64,000 nt of DNA, taken from Branchiostoma floridae. Lineage: Eukaryota > Chordata > Leptocardii > Amphioxiformes > Branchiostomatidae. Both the position numbers and the translations under genes were made by a program. The notes under the pieces were generated by a model. The model did not search any database. It was not told the origin of the DNA and saw nothing but the letters and a program-made list of their open reading frames with translations. The stretch covers positions 2,380,569 through 2,444,568 of the forward strand of contig NC_049987.1 of NCBI RefSeq assembly GCF_000003815.2, in the 5' to 3' direction. Every line of letters begins with the position of its first letter. The first letter of the stretch is position 1. Of this stretch, positions 1,294 through 42,770 are shown one piece after another.

Positions 1294-4240
1294 TGATATC
1301 CCTACGTCGCCGCCTCGCTGATATTCCCACGGACATGTTTCAAGAAAAATACCCAGCAAAAAATGCTGTTCTGCGTCAAATTCTATTCTATAAAACATGT
1401 GGGACTCAGTGTTACAGTCTAAATATTTTGTAGAAGCACCGCTGTAGGAAAGAAGGTCCAAGCAATGTAAAACATCACGTAGCATGAAGTTCGCTGTCAA
1501 CTGGCACACAGCACATGACTGTTTGAAACTCTAAGTCTAATCAACAGCCGTGTTTGATTGATAGCCGGCGGTCCTTTGATGAAGTCGGCGAAAGGTGCGT
1601 TAGTTAGAAAATCTGCGTTTAGTTTTGATACGTAATTATAAGTTAGACAGTGGCGAGAATGATTATTTTCTCATCAATATTTCTCTTCAGAATTATTTGA
1701 ACTTAATTGTACATCTAAACAATTGGCTTACCTGTGCAATGTTTATATGATTAATGATCAGTGTACTGAAATCATGTGTAACGTATGGCTCCTAGTCAAT
1801 AGATCAGCATTTTCTCTATAGTGACCACCTGTCTATAGTGGCCACATTTCCTAGTGCTGTTGTTGTTTGACATAAACTTTGAACATTTAAATTGTAAGTA
1901 ACTTTAAACTGCCAGAGTTTCAGCCCAATAAAACACTCTCAGCGCCAGGGTATGAACAGACTGACCAGACAGACGAAAATAAATCCTCGAACAAGGTTCA
2001 ATCGTATCTTCCGGGTCTGGCAGGAAGTTGTTAAACTAAAATAAGAATAGGCTCGATGGCTGATTGCATACAAAGTAAAACAGTTTAACAGTTTTACAGC
2101 TTGAAGAAAACAAACGCTCCTACAGTACCTGCACCTGCTTGATAATTATTAAATCGTATGCCCTACTTGAATAAAAAAAGTTCACTGCAATAATAAATGT
2201 ACCCACATCACAAGGAGCTTATACTTTTTTAAACTTACACCTAGTTATCGTACTGAAAATTGTTAATGACATTACATGAAGTCATTCAACAATTTTCAGT
2301 CATGATGAAAAATTTCTGAATGGAAGGTGTGATTATTGTCATTTTCTGAAAAATAGAAGCAAGCTCTGTTTTTACCTGGAATCAATTCACAATACCAGTC
2401 CACTTTGGGGGATAATGTACTGTTAAGAGGATGTTCCATTTTTGCGCAGGGGTGATTTGGAACAGTCCAATGTTGCGTGGAAAGGGGTATGGCTGAAATA
2501 TGCTGTATTTGCTCTTAAGCAAATGTCGGCCTTTCTAGTTACCACTTGTGTCCTTGTTGTGACCTATATACTCTACATTACATCGCTTGGAAAACAAGAC
2601 ATAAAAGTATAACTTCCATTTTGGGCTTGCGACTTGGAACTCATTGAAATTCTGACATGACCCCGTGTCTCTTGCCCAAACGTTCTCGCCACATATCAGT
2701 ACAATTGGCCGTGCCGTGGCGGGAACGCTTTATCCGCCCGCACGGGGCTTGTCAGTCAATAGGACTATACGCCTCGCGACACCTTTTCTGTCCGGGATAA
2801 CATAAAACATGCATAATTTCTTCCTTGGAAGAGAGACCAAATGCTTATCCCGACAAGAAATTTGTCCAATTTCAGCAGGTAGGATAACAAATCCACCGCC
2901 GGAAGCAAATGTATCAATGGTTGCAACAATGATGATGTCGTAACATTCTTTGTTTCACAATGCAGTCCACTACATTGTGTATCCCATATGTCTAATGTAA
3001 ACTCCCTATAAACAATCTCATCAATGACTGCAAGTTACTGTGAAAAACAAACCCTGCTTTGTTCATCAGTGTATTGTACCGGTAGTAACTGTTACATGTG
3101 CAACCCTTTTAAAACGTGTAATACACGCCCCTGTATACAATATCATCATTGCCCTTAGTCTACAGATTATCAAATCTTATGGGGAACATGCACACCCCAT
3201 CATGTATAATGTACTGTCCCTATAAACCATTTTCTCTATTGCGCAACTATGACCTTTGGAATCACTTCCTGTTGGGACGGGGTAAGCATGAAGCCCATCG
3301 GCATGACGTAATATCACATAAATATAGCACGATTGCGTAATACCCACGATTGCGTAATACCTACGATTGCGTAAAACCCATTTTCCACCTACAAACATCC
3401 CCTGCAAAACCGTCAAAAGCCACTAAACGATAAAACGCCACGTACGTTTCTTCACTGTCTCAAGAGCTACCCACATACCAAATATCAGATCAATCTGTCC
3501 AGCCGTTCATGAGATTTTCTGTCCACAGACACGTACCCTACAACGGTTTGCACACATACCTATTGCATTCTGCTAATTACCTCCTAATTTGCATAATAAT
3601 CATACAATTATGTACATCACTACCTAAGCTATCTGCATACCTACAGTCATTCCGATCCATCGACCCCTGCTTCCATAATTCCTTCTCAAAACCTAACACA
3701 AGAATGACTTTCACCGCCCCAGCAAAACCCCTAAGTGGCCAAAACTTACACACCTTACTATTCATTTACACAGCTACTTACCACTTAAAAATCATCACCC
3801 AAACATGTCCCGAAAAAAAATATCAAAACCGGAAGTTCTGCTGCAGTACAATAACACTCCGCTAGAGCGCCCTGCCGTAACGCAATTCCTACCATTCCTT
3901 CGTCATGTCTAACCCTACCCACATACCAAATATCAAAACAATCCATCCATGCCTTCCCCAGTTATCAGGCTGACAAACGTCCCTCTCACAAAAAACAGCA
4001 CTCAAAACAAACCCTTCGTTTCACGAAGGGAAATAGCATTTACAATAGCATGACATTGTATCCATTTGATGCCATCCTTATTTCTTATATACATATGTTT
4101 AATTGGTAGAAAAGATTTCTTTTCTTAAAGGCTTCTCACAATTGCAGATCATATTTCTAACAACTTGCAACATTACAAATAATATAAAATTCTACAGGCC
4201 TGAATATGGTTGTAGACACTTTTTCTATACACTGTATTAG
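1294..4240. other. Non-coding stretch with repeats, no gene seen
   Basis: I find no convincing exon on either strand. It holds an inverted repeat at about 2,660-2,745 (arms begin with CCCCGTG and end with CGTTC-CGCCAC), a three-copy ~18-bp tandem repeat at about 3,329-3,380 (unit around ACGATTGCGTAATACC), and two loosely similar segments near 3,475-3,500 and 3,920-3,950. Open frames here lack family features and look like repeat sequence. Confidence 0.6.
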
Positions 4241-8300: not shown

Positions 8301-11300
8301 GAGTGGTCAGAGGGTTTGAGAGCTTTGTTGAAGGTCCAGTTTGGATAGCCACACTTGGCCAAGGCACTTTGGAGATGTCTGTGTGCATCTTTTGTGGCTT
8401 TGTCTAAGGAAATGACTGCCCGGTGAAAAAAAATCTTATCACTGCCAGTTTGTGTTCCAAAGGGTTGTGGAAGCACAATAACACTGTATATCCATCAGAC
8501 AAGCTTACATCTTAAGCTTATATAAAGTCCAGTAAAACACTATTTTTTTATCACTTAACTGTGCAAACAACTATCAAACACATAGGAGAAAAGCTAACGA
8601 TTTACGTAGGTACCTGACATCCTGTAGCCAAGGCAGCAGCCTCCACACAGCCGACCACACGTTTCTCCAGCTTCTTTAGTTCAGTCTCTGAGTGAGCCCG
8701 GAGGTAAAATATCAGCTTGGTCTCGGAGGGGATGATGTCAGGATGGGTCCCTCCGTTTTGTATGATACCTGCAGCAAGACCAAAGTATCCTGTTACACTT
8801 GGCCACTTTTACCTTATGTTTTCCACAACAAGACAAACAACACAGGAACTAAATTACAATATCTAAGTCATATCACAGACTTATGTATAAGGTTCATAGA
8901 CTTATTCAACAAAAATGGATAACTTGACATCACATATTAGTGTTACTACTATACACCTAGAACTGCCAAAGCATCTGAAAGTGCAGATACACTGTTGCAA
9001 CTACATATCTCAAAGACCTACCGTGCACCTGATGGTGGGGCCTCATCTGCTGCCTGAGTACAGACATTGTTACTGGAACAAAGAAGACCTACCGTGCACC
9101 TGATGGTGGGGCCTCATCTGCTGCCTGAGTACAGACATTGTTACTGGAACAAAGAAGACCTACCATGGACCTGATGGTGGGGTCTCATCTGCTGCCTGAG
9201 TACAGAGATGTTACTGGAACAGAGAAGACCTACCGTGCACCTGATGGTGGGGTCTCATCTGCTGCCTGAGTACAGAGATGTTACTGGAACACAGAAGACC
9301 TACCGTGCACCTGATGGTGGGGTCTCATCTGTTGCCTGAGTACAGACATTGTTACTGGAACAAAGAAGACCTACCATGGACCTGATGGTGGGGCCTCATC
9401 TGCTGCCTGAGTACAGACATTGTTACTGGAACAAAGAAGACCTACCGTGCACCTGATGGTGGGGCCTCATCTGCTGCCTGAGTACAGACATTGTTACTGG
9501 AACAAAGAAGACCTACCATGGACCTGATGGTGGGGTCTCATCTGCTGCCTGAGTACAGAGATGTTACTGGAACAGAGAAGACCTACCGTGCACCTGATGG
9601 TGGGGTCTCATCTGCTGCCTGAGTACAGAGATGTTACTGGAACACAGAAGACCTACCGTGCACCTGATGGTGGGGTCTCATCTGTTGCCTGAGTACAGAC
9701 ATTGTTACTGGAACAAAGAAGACCTACCATGGACCTGATGGTGGGGTCTCATCTGCTGCCTGAGTACAGACATTGTTACTGGAACAAAGAAGACCTACCA
9801 TGGACCTGATGGTGGGGTCTCATCTGCTGCCTGAGTACAAAAATGTTACTGGAACAGAGAAGACCTACGGTGCACCTGATGGTGGGGTCTCATCTGCTGC
9901 CTGAGTACAGAGATGTTACTGGAACACAGAAGACCTACCGTGCACCTGATGGTGGGGTCTCATCTGCTGCCTGAGTACAAAAATGTTACTGGAACAGAGA
10001 AGACCTACCGTGCACCTGATGGTGGGGTCTCATCTGCTGCCTGAGTACAGACATTGTTACTGGAACAGAAAAGACCTACCATGCACCTGATGGTGGGGTC
10101 TCATCTGCTGCCTGAGTACAGAGATGTTACTGGAACAGAAAAGACCTACCGTGCACCTGATGGTGGGGTCTCATCTGCTGTCTGAGTACAGAGATGTAAC
10201 TGGAACAGAGAAGACCTACCATGCACCTGATGGTGGGGTCTCATCTGCTGCCTGAGTACAGAGATGTTACTGGAACAGAGAAGACCTACCGTGCACCTGA
10301 TGGTGGGGTCTCATCTGCTGCCTGAGTACAGAGATGTTATTATAACACAGGACGGCTGCGTCCAGGGCGTTGGTCCCTTCCCAAGTCTGGTAGGCGGGGT
10401 GAGAGGCCACACCCTTGTAAATCACCTCACCACTGCACAGGCACAAAATTCAATGAGACTTTGAGACTTTATCTTTAATCCATTAACTTAATGTACATGA
10501 ATACATAATGAGCAAGCAGTACTTCTTTCCATCATATATGACATGCAAGTAAGGAGTAGTTTTAAAAATACTGCTAAATTCTTTAAGAACATTCGAACCA
10601 GTGTTTTATCTAACACATTGCTGAGTTTCTTTAGAGTAATTCAACATGTTACTTAAGAGTTTGTTTTTGGAAGGAATGTTCTTACAATATTTTGTTTGGA
10701 CAGGAAATTTCTGCACTGGTGCAGGTAACATTAAAAATTATTTTACTGCACCAGACAAATTTTACCTGCACCACTCTGAAATGAGGAAGAATGGATCATA
10801 CAAAAATTGTTGAGAAACCATTGCTATCTTTTTCTTCTTTTAAGTTAAACTCAAAAGTTGGTAACAGTCAATGCAGCTAATAACAATCCACATACACCCA
10901 AAAACCATAGTCCATTTATGTAAAAAAAAAAACAGTACATGGACTAGTGCAAGTTAGTTGCAAGTAGACACCAGAAATAACTGCACAGCTCCAATTTTAC
11001 CTGCACTATAAACCTGCATTAATAATGCAGGTGGCATTTCGAGCCCTGATATGCTGACTTGAATCTCTATCTACAGTACCCAATATCATGTCATGCCTGT
11101 GATGCGAAAACGTTTGATACGGGTGTTCCGGACCGTGCCATAACTTCCGTATCGCACAGATTCGAAAGGCGTATCACACAGCCTTTCTTCGAGTAAATTG
11201 AACTATTTCGAGCGGGCCAAGTGTGGCACAGTTGGCGATTCGAATAACTGATTGCTGTTGCAACACTGCTGTTGCAACACTTTTTCTTCGAGGGCACCAA

Positions 11301-32300: not shown

Positions 32301-35300
32301 CAAAAAACAACAACACTGAAACAATTACAGACAAGCAAATCATATAACAAAAGTAATGTTGTGAGTAAAAACGAAATCATAGAATATAAGAAAATACATG
32401 TATAATGTTTGCCTTGTATTTGTGTTTGTATAGTCTACTTTGGTAGGACGTGAGTTGGATCCCCGGTGAGGTCTTACCAAGACTTTTAAAAGCTAAAAAT
32501 GGTATACATTTTGCTTTCTCTGCCGAAGACTATAAGGGTAAGACAAACATATGGTAGTTAAACACACATCGCTACCAGTGGACTAACCCCTGTAATATTT
32601 GCAGTTGCGTGGCCCAAGGCTATTGAGACGGAGATGGGCACCGCTCTGTATATACACCACCTAGTGCACATGGGAAAGTGTTTGAAAGTAAACACACACA
32701 CATCACTATCAGGGTTCTAGTAATCCCCAAGTAGATCCTACAATGGCATAAGATAGTACCAAACTGGCCAAGAAGTGTAGTCAACCAACAGGTGTCCATT
32801 TGCTTTGTTTTAGCCGACTGGAAGCAGATTTAACGTGGCAAATGTACACCTCTTGGCTGACTACACTCCTTGGCCAGTTTGGTACTATCTTATGCCATTG
32901 TAGGATCTGATTGGAGATTAGCGACTAGCACAAAGTCAAGGGGCCTATGAACATTTTATCGTAACGGGCGCCGCTATAATAACCTCCATGGGCGGTTTTC
33001 CCCAAGCCGATTGAAGCTGCAAATAAATTCATAATTACAGTTTTTCATTGTTCACTGTTTTCATTGTTTTATGATTAATCACGGTTCTCTTTTAGGTAAA
33101 TATCTGGATTATTTTGATGATGCAGCCTGGGATATCTGGCACCGGACCCGGAAACGCTGGACTTCATTCGGAGAAGAAGTTGTCAGTCATGACGTCATAA
33201 CAGGTACACGTTAACAGTTTAACACGACTGCCCTCACTGTGAAAATAAACATCTGTCTGACTTCCGTTGGGGAGGTAAAATGCGGTGGAAGGAGAGCTCC
33301 TTGTCCTAAACACAGTAGATAACGACCCCCTGTCTCTAGCCCTGAAGGGTCCAAAACAGGCTTTGGCTTTGTGGGTACGTTTTGATACTTCAAAATCCTT
33401 TAATAGATAAACTCCTTTATGTGACTTTCTTCATTCCACCCAGGGTACCTGACTTCGGTTGGGGAGGTAAACGGCATTGGAAGGAGAAGAATGAGCTCCG
33501 CCGACAGCCTTCAAAACAGGCTATAGCTATGGGACTACATTTTAATGCCTTCCTAGGCCTGCCATAGATAAACATTCTTTGCGTGATTTCGCTATGCCTC
33601 GCTCCATTCAGTTATAAAATTGTACACCTGATTGGTTCGGTTGGGAAGGTAAAATAAGAGGGTTGCCACCACCTACAGCCTCTGAAATAGGCTATATGGG
33701 AATACCTTTACCATATTTGCTTTATATAGGAGACGGCGATCCCATCACAATATTTTACAACGACCACTGGAGAGAGGAACTATGGGACACTCCAAACAAC
33801 GAGCCGCCGATCCTGATAGCGGACTTGATCCGGGCTGTACAGCCAAACGTCAAGTTCATCCTCACACTTAGGAACCCTACAGATAGGTAAGGCCAAGTTC
33901 ATCCTCACACTTAGGAACCCTACAGATAGGTAAGGCCAAGTTCATCCTCACACTTAGGAACCCTACAGATAGGTAAGGCCAAGTTCATCCTCACACTTAG
34001 GAACCCTACAGATAGGTAAGGCCAAGTTCATCCTCACACTTAGGAACCCTACAGATAGGTAAGGCCGAATTCATCCTCACACTTAGGAACCCTACAGATA
34101 GGTAAGGCCAAGTTCATCCTCACACTTAGGAACCCTACAGATAGGTAAGGCCGAGTTCATCCTCACACTTAGGAACCCTACAGATAGGTAAGGCCAAGTT
34201 CATCCTCACACTTAGGAACCCTACAGATAGGTAAGGCCAAGTTCATCCTCACACTTAGGAACCCTACAGATAGGTAAGGCCAAGTTCATCCTCACACTTA
34301 GGAACCCTACAGATAGGTAAGGCCAAGTTCATCCTCACACTTATAATATATAGGAACCCTACAGATAGGTAAGGTCAAGTTCATCCTCACACTTAGGAAC
34401 CCCACAGAAATGTAAGTTTATTGTCACATTTATTAACCCCACAGAAAGGTAAGTTCATCCTCACACTTAGGAATCCCACAGAAAGGTAAGTTTATTCTCA
34501 AACTTGGGCACCCCACAGAAAGGTAAGTTTATTCTCAAACTTGGGCACCCCACAGAAAGGTAAGTTCATCCTCACACTTAGGAACCCCACAGAAAGGTGA
34601 GGCCAAGTTCATCCTCACACTTAGGAACCCTACAGATAGGTAAGGCCAAGTTCATCCTCACACTTAGGAACCCTACAGATAGGTAAGGCCAAGTTCATCC
34701 TCACACTTAGGAACCCTACAGATAGGTAAGGCCAAGTTCATCCTCACACTTAGGAACCCCACAGATAGGTAAGGCCAAGTTCATCCTCACACTTAGGAAC
34801 CCTACAGATAGGTAAGGCCAAGTTCATCCTCACACTTAGGAACCCTACAGATAGGTAAGGCCGAGTTCATCCTCACACTTAGGAACCCTACAGATAGGTA
34901 AGGCCAAGTTCATCCTCACACTTAGGAACCCTACAGATAGGTAAGGCCAAGTTCATCCTCACACTTAGGAACCCCACAGATAGGTAAGGCCAAGTTCATC
35001 CTCACACTTAGGAACCCTACAGATAGGTAAGGCCAAGTTCATCCTCACACTTAGGAACCCTACAGATAGGTAAGGCCAAGTTCATCCTCACACTTAGGAA
35101 CCCTACAGATAGGTAAGGCCAAGTTCATCCTCACACTTAGGAACCCCACAGATAGGTAAGGCCAAGTTCATCCTCACACTAAGGAACCCTACAGATAGGT
35201 AAGGTCAAGTTCATCCTCACACTTAGGAACCCCACAGAAATGTAAGTTTATTGTCACATTTATTAACCCCACAGAAAGGTAAGTTCATCCTCACACTTAG

Positions 35301-37866
35301 GAATCCCACACAAAGGTAACTTTATTCTCAAACTTGGGCACCCCACAGAAAGGTAAGTTTATTCTCAAACTTGGGCACCCCACAGAAAGGTAAGTTCATC
35401 CTCACACTTAGGAACCCCACAGAAAGGCGAGGCCAATTTCATCCTCACACTTAGGAACCCTACAGATAGGTAAGGCCAAGTTCATCCTCACACTTAGGAA
35501 CCCTACAGATAGGTAAGGCCAATTTCATCCTCACACTTAGGAACCCTACAGATAGGTAAGACCAAGTTCATCCTCACACTTAGGAACCCTACAGATAGGT
35601 AAGACCAAGTTCATCCTCACACTTAGGAACCCTACAGATAGGTAAGGCCAAGTTCATCCTCACACTTAGGAACCCTACAGATAGGTAAGGCCAAGTTCAT
35701 CCTCACACTAAGGAACCCTACAGATAGGTAAGGTCAAGTTCATCCTCACACTTAGGAACCCCACAGAAATGTAAGTTTATTGTCACATTTATTAACCCCA
35801 CAGAAAGGTAAGTTCATCCTCACACTTAGGAATCCCACAGAAAGGTAAGTTCATCCTCACACTTAGGAATCCCACAGAAAGGTAAGTTTATTCTCAAACT
35901 TGGGCACCCCACAGAAAGGTAAGTTCATCCTCACACTTAGGAACCCCACAGAAAGGCGAGGCCAATTTCATCCTCACACTTAGGAACCCCACTGAAATGT
36001 GAATTAATCCTCACACTTAGGAACCCCACTGAAATGTGAGTTAATCCTCACACTTAGGACCCCACAGAAAGATGAGGCCAATTTCATCCTCACACTTAGG
36101 AACCCCACTGAAAGGTGAGGCCAATTTCATCCTCACACTTAGGAACCCCACTAAAATGTGAGTTCATCCTCACACCTAGGAACTTTGAGGAAAATGTCTG
36201 ACAGACATCGAAACGTCAGCTAAGCTGAGATTAACTGGTTGTGTAGAGGAAAGCTCATATATCCCATAACGTTAAACCGTTTGAATATGCTTTCTCTCTG
36301 CAGGTTGTACTCCGACTATCTCTTCTGGAAGTTCTTACATGTGAAGAGGTCAAATACAGATTTCCACACGAGGGTTATTCTAACTCTCCGTATCTCAGGC
36401 NNNNNNNNNNNNNNNNNNNNNNNNNNNNNNNNNNNNNNNNNNNNNNNNNNNNNNNNNNNNNNNNNNNNNNNNNNNNNNNNNNNNNNNNNNNNNNNNNNNN
36501 GGTTCTCTGTTTCCCTAAGAGATAGAGTTGGCACCGAAACCGATCTTCCTTCATCTGGAACAGTAAGCACTAACGTTGAATTATCAAAAACTTGTCCTGT
36601 CCTATTAGACATAGTACTTTTTAATCTCGTTCTTAAATTTAGATATACTGCGTAGATTTCAATCTCGTCTCCAGGCTAAACTATGTATTTTTTTTATCTC
36701 GTCCCCGGGATAGACTACATATTTTATGAACCTCGTCCCCAGGTTAGGCTGTATACTTTTTAAAAATCTCTTCAGGCCTCTGACGCTCGACAGGATTTCC
36801 GTTCAAAATCTAGGAGACGGAAAAAATTCAGGCTGGCGAGAACTCGTCTCCAAGTTAGAAGACGTATTTTTCAATTTTGTTTATCCCGTCCCCAGGTTCG
36901 CCTGCGGCGGGGGCTGTACGAGGTGTACCTGCGGGACTGGTTGTCTATTTTCCCGCGTGACCAGATTCTCGTTCAGCGTCTAGAGGATCATGCTAGGGAC
37001 CCAAACACAACCATGACGAGGGTTCTCAACTTCCTGGATCTTGGTCAGTATTGATAATCATACTTTTATAATTTCAAGTCACTGCTGAAGGCTGAGTGCA
37101 AGTAACGCTAATTAAACTTTTTCCGTGGTGTACCCAATGTCCGTTGGTTAAGAAAACAGCACTGATTCTATTTCAAATCCAAAAGTCAACAGACGGTGGT
37201 TCAAACTGGAAACTTGTGAAAATATTGCGATTCGAAACCACTATCCGTCAACTTGATATACTAAATTGGATTCTTGGAAGCAGAGGAAGATGAAAGGCCC
37301 CACTTTTTCCACAATTTGTTTGGATTCTGCAATTTTAAGAGGAAAGCGGCTTTCTGTTCTTTCTGGGGAATGTCTTCGTGACATCTCGTGATTCTTTTAG
37401 TTTCGTTAAATCAAAACGTGTTTCGTCCCCCACTGCTTTAGATCTACACAGTATTTACTATGATTATTATTGTGTTTACTTACGCCTGGTATCCAAACCT
37501 ATTATTGTAGCTGATCATGAGTCTCTTCGCCCTTTGAGTGAAACGACCACGCAGCTATAATAGGTTTATATACCATGATATTAGAGCTTTAATAGATCTT
37601 TGAAGAGTCCTTGGTTCTTGCCATCTTACCAATAAACCAGTATTTGAACAACTTTTGTTTTAATCCACTTTACAGGACCTGTCCGAAAAAAATCCATCTT
37701 CGGCTTCCGCAAGAGAAATTCCCAGAAAAGAAAGTATGACAGCATAGGCCAGATGTTGCCGAAGACCCGGCGGATTCTGAACGAGTTTTACCGACCGTAC
37801 AACGAGCGACTTGCGGAGCTTTTAAACAATGCGGACTTTCTGTGGCAGAAGGAGAGTTCTGTCTGA
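29345..37866 (+). CDS. CHST15: CHST15-like Golgi sulfotransferase (gap in exon 6)
   Basis: Resembles vertebrate carbohydrate sulfotransferase 15, which transfers sulfate from PAPS to C-6 of 4-sulfated GalNAc in chondroitin sulfate. Exons: 29345-29638, 30240-30376, 31078-31220, 33096-33203, 33730-33886, 36304-36400 (runs into 100 Ns), 36896-37043, 37676-37866 (stop 37864-37866). Phases agree except across the gap. It is a type II membrane protein: cytoplasmic start, membrane anchor ALVLCACLLTLLFLYGY, then a luminal stem with N-T-S and N-M-T sequons. Key motifs are LPKEFLPDYKNPCWFEK, the 5'-phosphosulfate loop GMPKCGTTDLY, KNEPNWWT, the 3'-phosphate motif KFILTLRNPTDR followed by LYSDYLFW, and RLRRGLYEVYLRDWLSIF. 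I chose ATG 29,345 because an earlier ATG at 29,325 is out of frame. About 30 residues are probably lost in the gap. Amphioxus may have several paralogues, so orthology is not certain. Confidence 0.9.
30396..30600. repeat. (ACTC)n-rich microsatellite
   Basis: Long imperfect run of CACT/TCAC tetramers immediately after CHST15-like exon 2. It creates a misleading Leu/Thr/His/Ser-rich open frame. Confidence 0.9.
30670..31045 (+). mobile_element. LINE 3' fragment with tail
   Basis: The frame ending at 30,870 gives CSRYAILRNELFTFLESS, then FVYIFRCHNSHNAKIGKYI and IKDCFAIRK, the usual C-terminus of CR1/jockey-like LINE ORF2. An AT-rich 3' tail follows with TGTCGTGCAATAAAGTT and ends in ATCAATCAACC repeats. 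It lies in intron 2 of the CHST15-like gene, in sense. Confidence 0.75.
31311..31541. mobile_element. MITE with TACCCCTGTCACATT ends (copy 1)
   Basis: Starts TACCCCTGTCACATT and ends AATGTGACAGGGGTA. Its middle contains GCCATACTTTGTACCTTGTA and TTGTTGTGCAATAGAGTT, closely resembling the LINE tail at about 30,985-31,025. An inverted second copy lies at 50,231-50,461. Found in intron 3 of the CHST15-like gene. Confidence 0.85.
32733..32907. mobile_element. Short foldback MITE, 175 bp
   Basis: Nearly the whole element is two ~75-bp arms in inverted orientation: left AGATCCTACAATGGCATAAG, right the inverse, sharing GATAGTACCAAACTGGCCAA. Predicted to form a strong hairpin. It lies in intron 3 of the CHST15-like gene. 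Confidence 0.85.
33215..33700 (+). mobile_element. Three head-to-tail SINE body fragments
   Basis: Three copies (about 33,235-33,370, 33,440-33,545, 33,615-33,700) each contain a version of CTTCGGTTGGGGAGGTAAA, then GGCATTGGAAGGAGA-like text, then AAACAGGCTATA-like text. The same body occurs inverted at 56,860-56,940. They fill intron 4 between exons 4 and 5 of the CHST15-like gene. Tandem arrangement suggests local duplication rather than three insertions. Confidence 0.65.
33852..36180 (+). repeat. Exon-donor minisatellite, roughly 50 x ~43 bp
   Basis: Each unit consists of ~35 nt copied from the 3' end of CHST15-like exon 5 (coding KFILTLRNPTDR) and an 8-nt start of the intron, AG|GTAAGGCC. 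The first copy is the real exon end and donor at 33,886/33,887; the rest follow downstream without a break. Later units are shorter or diverged (for example CCCCACAGAAAGGTAAGTT, ~36-38 bp), and a block starting near 34,371 recurs near 35,201 and again near 35,731, showing higher-order duplication. Most units keep a GTAAG donor core. Reading through the first donor gives an immediate in-frame TAA (GAT AGG TAA). Confidence 0.96.
36401..36500. other. Assembly gap of 100 N
   Basis: The gap lies inside CHST15-like exon 6, about 220 bp after the minisatellite array, and removes the exon end and its donor. A fixed length of 100 suggests an unknown true size. Confidence 0.98.
36640..36900 (+). repeat. 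Degenerate reiteration of a 3' splice site
   Basis: The acceptor of CHST15-like exon 7 (CCCGTCCCCAG|GTTCGCC at 36,896) has imperfect relatives upstream at about 36,665 (CTCGTCTCCAG|GCTAAAC), 36,705 (CTCGTCCCCGG|GATAGAC), 36,732 (CTCGTCCCCAG|GTTAGGC) and 36,843 (CTCGTCTCCAA|GTTAGAA). A decayed copy of exon 7 text (GGATTTCCGTTCAAAATCTA beside AGATTCTCGTTCAGCGTCTA) lies at about 36,790-36,820. Confidence 0.65.
37180..37345 (-). mobile_element. LINE 3' fragment related to 11,820-13,100
   Basis: About 60 bp around 37,256-37,330 match the 3' end of the LINE at 11,990-12,050 (TTCTTGGAAGCAGAGGAAGA beside TTCTGGAAGCAGTGGAAGA, then CCCACTTTTTC). It lies in intron 7 of the CHST15-like gene. Confidence 0.5.
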
Positions 37867-42094: not shown

Positions 42095-42770
42095 ACTAAG
42101 GACTGTCATTACAGAATGTACGCGTACGGCTATAGGCACAGTCCTCACACACCATGGACTGTCAGCACAGAATTTAAGGCTATAGGCACAGTCCTCACAT
42201 ACCATGGACTGTCAGCACAGAATGGACGGCTATAGGCCCAGTCCTCACATACCATGGACTGTCAGCACAGAATGGACGGCTATAGGCCCAGTCCTCACAT
42301 ACCATGGACTGTCAGCACAGAATGGACGGCTATAGGCCCAGTCCTCACATACCATGGACTGTCAGCTCAGAATGGACGGCTATAGGCCCAGTCCTCACAT
42401 ACCATGGACTGTCAGCACAGAATGGACGGCTATAGGCCCAGTCCTCACATACCATGGACTGTCAGCACAGAATGGACGGCTATAGGCCCAGTCCTCACAT
42501 ACCATGGACTGTCAGCACAGAATGGACGGCTATAGGCCCAGTCCTCACATACCATGGACTGTCAGCACAGAATGGACGGCTATAGGCCCAGTCCTCACAT
42601 ACCATGGACTGTCAGCACAGAATGGACGGCTATAGGCCCAGTCCTCACATACCATGGACTGTCAGCACAGAATGGACGGCTATAGGCACAGTCCTCACAT
42701 ACCATCGACTGTCATCACAGAAGGTACGGCTATAATAGGCCCGGTACTCACATACTAAGGACTGTCAGAA
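42095..42770. repeat. 50-bp minisatellite, ~13 copies
   Basis: Unit contains GTCCTCACATACCATGGACT, then GTCAGCACAGAATGG and CGGCTATAGGCCCA, exactly 50 bp, with about ten nearly identical copies from 42,170 to 42,670 and decayed copies at each edge. On the minus strand every unit contains ATG|GTATGTGAG, a good splice-donor match, but no real exon could be linked to it. Confidence 0.95.

Follow-up and report, generated by a model that had tools for sequence, protein, structure and literature searches.

A mirage minisatellite at a 5′ splice site of an amphioxus sulfotransferase gene and a genome-wide excess of donor-motif triples

Introduction

In a 64,000-nucleotide stretch of the Branchiostoma floridae genome (hereafter, the window), the end of a coding exon of a sulfotransferase gene is repeated in tandem together with its splice donor, the copies running on from the exon into the following intron. 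We read this array as a mirage minisatellite, that is, as a tandem duplication over a 5′ splice site that expanded into the intron and whose surplus donors are in all likelihood neutral decoys, and we put the probability of this reading at about 0.8. The array is a large addition to a kind already described in lancelets, and the scale of the genome-wide excess reported below is new; an earlier, sequence-only reading of the window was silent both on the described type and on its frequency in this genome.

In the available text of PMC3087553, mirages are minisatellite-like tandem duplications of exon-intron boundaries in amphioxus globin genes, BflGb6 and BflGb9 among them; the type is traced there to Adh3, with somatic length change, for which its reference list gives Canestro et al. 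2002. The same text mentions other mirage loci, considers a possibly more general phenomenon, and presents globin RT-PCR and Adh3 data that suggest normal splicing (PMC3087553). A mirage in PGBD5 was added, and TnC cited, in the portion of PMC3902484 at hand. A model of Rogers (1989), in which introns are gained when AGGT-bearing sequence is duplicated in tandem, is cited in PMC3087553, and a case from potato appears in the available part of PMC4974935. The array in the window has 55 intronic units, as compared to 6 and 3 in two BflGb6 haplotypes (PMC3087553). Unlike the amphioxus mirages as these portions describe them, it is common to three paralogs and has a private base common to exon and array; nor do the available parts of PMC3087553 and PMC3902484 contain a genome-wide count of donor motifs such as the one given here. 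Among the matches listed from the amphioxus, lancelet, mirage and Branchiostoma tandem-repeat literature, no title announced a genome-wide count of such arrays.

Structure of the array

The array [Table 1] begins within a coding exon and runs on into the intron, with a period of 43, 55.6 copies and 90% matches according to TRF. Parsing it donor by donor yielded 56 copies of the exon tail plus donor, namely the exon's own, which takes up the final 38 nt of the exon and forms the head of the array, and 55 intronic ones measuring 43 bp (n = 37), 37 bp (n = 16), 52 bp (n = 1) and 36 bp (n = 1). The parsed units extend to position 36157 and are followed by a partial unit. The sequence-only reading, which had the exon end and donor repeated some 50 times in a ~43-bp unit over ~2.3 kb, was thus confirmed. 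Its names for the gene, CHST15-like, and for the repeated codons, a PAPS 3′-phosphate motif, are putative. The 43-bp unit is made of GTRAG, GCCAAG and a 32-nt body, and the 37-bp unit of the same elements without GCCAAG; translated in the frame of the exon, 32 of the 56 copies read FILTLRNPTD and 11 read FILTLRNPTE. With 55 ordered, near-identical copies, the question of a chance origin of the repeat is moot. A 230-bp block is present three times in the array, which is the mark of a later block duplication. Intronic minisatellites generally have units of comparable size, are homogenised and form higher-order blocks; the present one differs in that its unit stems from the end of a coding exon that is still used.

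Table 1. Coordinates of the array, its host gene and related features. Positions are those of the window unless a contig is named; a slash within a motif marks the splice site.
Feature	Position	Strand	Description or basis
Mirage minisatellite	33851..36148	+	43/37-bp unit, 55 intronic + exon copy; TRF and unit list
Coding exon, 157 nt, ends ...KFILTLRNPTD-AG/	33730..33886	+	Acceptor ...TTTATATAG/ at 33729, donor at 33887, both read directly
First donor GTAAGG, frame-restoring	33887..33892	+	33886/36304 join
Array-bearing intron	33887..36303	+	Direct reading; intron of paralog L011 at same place
Next coding exon (LYSDYLFWKFLHVKRSNTDFHTRV...)	36304..36400	+	Enters 100 N at 36401-36500
Higher-order block 1, chiefly 37-bp units	34369..34598	+	Unit list
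Higher-order block 2	35199..35428	+	3 differences from block 1 over 230 bp
Higher-order block 3	35728..35957	+	7 differences from block 1, 8 from block 2
Second donor mirage, 70/71-bp unit	9013..10339	-	19 GTAGGT donors: one real, 18 intronic copies
Same-strand donor arrays	C1: 221146, 222126, 229971, 238756, 408326, 823286, 1453688, 1464398, 1656948, 1810617, 1834315, 4497117		
Opposite-strand gene boundaries (3 arrays)	C1: 231001, 244378, 822729		Acceptors at 231001 and 244378; AA/GTAAG donors at 822729

Joining the first donor to the acceptor CTCTGCAG (36296-36303) gives NPTDR-LYSDYLFW in frame, and the joined exons, with an upstream exon included and another exon possibly missing, match Pfam Sulfotransfer_1 with an E value of 7e-9. 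Reading through donor 1 yields AGG TAA, the immediate stop foreseen by the sequence-only reading, and any downstream donor of the array, if used, leaves an in-frame stop. Judging from the reading frame, donor 1 probably still splices to the old acceptor, so that the copies would be removed with the intron. The array spans the exon-intron boundary as a tandem repeat, and many but not all of its units carry the AG/GT splice signals characteristic of mirages, 46 of the 56 having an intact AG/GTRAG. The expectation of many near-equivalent sites for U1 held as well, the predicted U1 duplex amounting to -9.9 kcal/mol at donor 1 and -10.1 kcal/mol at the common 37-bp donor. Variant units had been said to keep GTAAG or GTGAG, which is mostly so (positions +1 to +5 read GTAAG in 47 units and GTGAG in 4) but fails for GCGAG (2 units), GTAAC (1), GTGAA (1) and ATGAG (1); position -1 is a T in 6 of 56. 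Nature thus provides dozens of near-equal 5′ splice sites in series, the frame being kept by the first alone, and the array would directly test how exon definition selects one donor among many.

The run of 100 N that starts just behind the following exon lies ~250 bp downstream of the array, as might be expected if a shorter polymorphic array had been misassembled. The differences between units are ordered, however, with a higher-order pattern, and related arrays of other lengths exist at two paralogous loci. An artefact is thus very unlikely.

Paralogous loci and origin of the array

A search of the genome for the exon returned six places. An array is found at the same exon end in three loci of contig C9, the window, L009 (C9:23.07 Mb) and L010 (C9:14.94 Mb), and its length differs between these paralogs, with 55, 13 and 7 intronic units parsed, respectively. 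No donor array was present in the stretches read of paralogs L011, L012 and L018. Exon dS, the last 36 nt being excluded, was 0.17-0.22 among the three array bearers and at least 0.45 between the bearers and the other three. Since the junction types GTRAG^GCCAAGTTC and GTRAG^TTC both occur in the window and in L009, and L010 has the 37-bp type plus one GTGAGGCCAAGTT at the array end, the simplest reading would be that the array originated once, before the duplications that gave rise to these paralogs. At least 16 matches to the unit were found genome-wide, of which the three paralogous arrays account for 14 and exons of additional paralogs for 2; the candidate identity of the unit as a dispersed element or introner was rejected, no copies having been seen in unrelated genes among these matches.

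The paralogs also bear on the age of the intron. With tandem copies that have AG/GT at their edges, the array resembles the product of a Rogers-type intron gain, a process suggested for lancelet globins in the available text of PMC3087553, and the whole intron might on this account have been newly gained through tandem duplication of AGGT. In L011, however, an intron occupies the same codon position (NPTER-LYSEY) with no array at its donor, and in the window the acceptor at 36303 lies >100 bp beyond the last partial unit, behind sequence that is not part of the repeat. Given the L011 intron, gain by tandem duplication was rejected for the window intron, where we attach next to no weight to it; in other introns, elsewhere, the process may occur. 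At the opposite end of the same exon, L011 (C4:15.39 Mb) carries a 55-bp repeat of 4 copies (3435-3657) which crosses the acceptor (3639/3640) into the start of the exon and, by reading, appears to be an acceptor mirage.

We favor instead, for the window array, a tandem duplication over a pre-existing splice site. The first duplication would have taken place between short direct repeats in the exon tail and the start of the intron, and the 37-bp unit presumably derives from the 43-bp unit, one of whose two AAG repeats was lost. In L010, the array end GTGAGGCCAAGTTGATT and the exon GCCAAGTTCATC form an 8-bp direct repeat with a spacing of 43 bp. A comparable arrangement is seen at a dynein heavy-chain locus, where more complete copies of the exon tail lie inside the array or close it.

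Exon and array appear to share changes. In the exons of the window, L009 and L010, the Pro codon ends in T, A and C, respectively, in each case the base that predominates at this place in the locus's own array (29/55, 9/13 and 6/7). At the third base of Ile, the exon matches the commonest base of its own array in the window alone (45/55), not in L009 (3/13) or L010 (3/7). Among the six paralogs, the Asp of NPTD is confined to the window exon, with Glu in its place in the other five; Asp recurs in 32 of 55 intronic units of the window, whereas all 13 units of L009 and all 7 of L010 are of the Glu type. Judged by the Pro third base, exon and array may be read as changing in concert, a pattern not visible at every site and compatible with either direction of transfer.

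Constancy of the repeated donors

The abundance of intact donors could reflect selection, as the sequence-only reading had proposed alongside homogenisation. The donors would then be kept as a field of U1 sites, with a part in regulating splicing, damping the gene through NMD or shielding the intron from early polyadenylation. Their intactness in 46 of 56 copies of the window array and in all 14 copies of L009 points in this direction, as do the in-frame stop left by every downstream donor and the genome-wide excess of donor-motif triples. Donor conservation was assessed on 78 units from the three paralogous arrays, aligned in one fixed register and reduced to 32 distinct units, changes being counted on a tree; four units with indels were fitted by hand (a 9-bp insert was removed and gaps were placed) so that all 78 could be used. 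The six donor positions (-2, -1, +1, +2, +4 and +5) had undergone 1.5 changes per site (1.7 when +3 was counted) as compared to 1.2 at the 30 non-donor positions, and 79% of 100,000 random six-site draws showed equal or fewer changes (P = 0.79). No excess constancy of donor bases over other unit positions was thus found among these 32 distinct units, whose few changes give low power, so that weak selection would be missed. Against selective maintenance also stand L010, where just 4 of 8 donors are intact, and the consideration that a template derived from the exon would account for the intact units. Selection for many donors in the window array is not supported and we consider it unlikely; with donor bases no more constant than the rest of the unit, homogenisation is the better fit.

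A second donor mirage lies in the window [Table 1], in an M20-peptidase-like gene whose flanking exons, once joined, match Pfam M20_dimer (1.7e-6). Donor positions +1 to +6 are invariant over its 13 distinct units, but as merely 11 of the 64 other positions vary there is little contrast, making this invariance uninformative on selection.

According to the neutral reading that we prefer, unequal exchange and conversion would hold the array uniform, and the exon copy, because it is under protein-level selection, could act as a lasting template from which intact units of exon end and donor are renewed, with no selection needed on the extra donors, which would themselves be neutral. From the first to the last unit of the window array, identity to the exon declines (rho -0.46, P 0.0005). 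Falling identity to the exon weakly backs the idea of a template. Polarity was also considered in a set of 12 arrays, 10 of which gave a value; eight values were negative (that of L010 just -0.04) and two positive (L009 and L050), with P <0.05 in two arrays only, the window and L055. Given so few significant values and none for 2 of the 12 arrays, polarity was dropped as a general rule.

Donor-motif arrays across the genome

The genome was searched for triples of a donor motif, defined as three copies with gaps of 20-50, on the understanding that an array holds several triples and that long arrays weigh more. Triples of AGGTAAG numbered 3315 (1803 + 1512) genome-wide, as compared to 246 (124 + 122) for the reversed motif, a 13-fold excess, and those of AGGTGAG 3132 (1575 + 1557) as compared to 139 (92 + 47), a 22-fold excess. 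Since single AGGTAAG motifs are about as frequent as their reverse (79,057 vs 74,355, or 1.06x), the 13-fold excess is not due to background frequency. Excesses of this order suggest a class rather than a curiosity of few genes, and neutral decay alone does not account for the over-representation of donor motifs among tandem arrays. Among the matches listed, some 100 places per motif corresponded to 11 arrays each, within the first 4.5 Mb of contig C1 for AGGTAAG and the first 1.5 Mb for AGGTGAG; rough extrapolation from these arrays suggests some hundreds of donor-motif arrays genome-wide. For the acceptor heptamer TTGCAGG, 182 triples stood against 94 reversed (2x), a comparison with the donors that is inexact, acceptors being more degenerate; by this single heptamer, acceptors as equal seats of minisatellites came out the weaker candidate.

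Arrays with an exact AGGTRAG are nevertheless a minor part of all minisatellites in the genome, since a random sample (8 of 60 drawn places, all on C4) had 6 arrays with a period of at least 12, at least 3 copies and a length of at least 120 bp in 80 kb, and none of the 6 held the motif. In the window, two of the three arrays that pass this filter are mirages, and the window is therefore perhaps untypical. The third is a 50-bp minisatellite of 12.8 copies (42126-42768), for which no adjoining exon was recognised, one 60-aa open frame lying at its edge.

Splice boundaries beside other arrays

The flanks of the 22 arrays listed on C1 were read, partly on one side only. A splice boundary was present at 15 of them, some judged by the open frame only; at 12 arrays, a same-strand open exon has the repeated AGGTRAG as its donor, and in 3 the boundaries belong to a gene on the opposite strand [Table 1]. 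For the remaining 7, flank reading gave no link to a splice site (C1 51062, 449669, 685155, 689246, 746276, 1470026 and 2710896). Exons beside an array matched Pfam TALPID3 (7e-8; 408326) and dynein AAA_8 (6e-10; 238756), and exons joined across the array intron matched dynein AAA_7 (3.6e-15; 229971 and 231001) and CMIP6 (1.5e-18; 1656948). The remaining array genes are open frames with no Pfam match above the cut-off, one of them with a weak TPR match (0.002); by resemblance, they may include kynurenine monooxygenase, borealin and parts of dynein.

The dynein heavy-chain-like parts at C1 220-245 kb (L019, L022, L027 and L050) are inferred from position and strand to be one gene. Five of its exon ends bear a donor array, namely those at 221146, 222126, 229971 and 238756 and the one in L027 with its three GTATGT donors. 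Acceptor arrays stand at two exon ends (231001 and 244378), and one intron has both kinds.

The 7 arrays without a splice-site link and the 3 whose motif is opposite to the gene strand would suit a different explanation, in which AGGTRAG is in excess as a DNA motif, bound by a factor that promotes breaks or recombination, and the excess owes nothing to splice-donor identity. Position -3 is a C in 15 of the 22 arrays, which adds to this case, CAGGTR being what we take for an E2-box-like motif. Mirages occur with other donors, however, such as AAG/GTATGT (L027), CACG/GTAGGT (the window), AA/GTAAG (L054) and AAG/GTGAG (the paralogs), and we regard a motif of this kind as an improbable cause. A bolder and more tentative proposal, which we hold possible but short of probable, is that minisatellites in this genome favor 5′ splice sites as their seats, that the exon end, held constant by selection on the protein, serves as a permanent master copy reseeding the array, and that exchange in both directions allows the array to introduce amino-acid changes into the exon, in this case Glu to Asp in NPT[E/D]R. 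Whether splice sites are where minisatellites arise, or only where they survive by having a selected exon as template, is now testable.

Three loci on C1 have features of their own. In L054 (C1:822000-825200), a presumably borealin-like gene with no Pfam match, donor mirages stand at two successive exons, with AAAG/GTGAGG and AA/GTAAGG. The TALPID3 gene (L051, C1:407900-409300) has a 23-bp donor mirage whose unit, GTGAGTTTTCTTCTCACACTCAG, resembles a tiny intron. Finally, the minus strand of a long array in L041 (C1:744776-747863) looks by eye like a short exon together with 26 nt that resemble an intron and contain CTTAAC and CAG.
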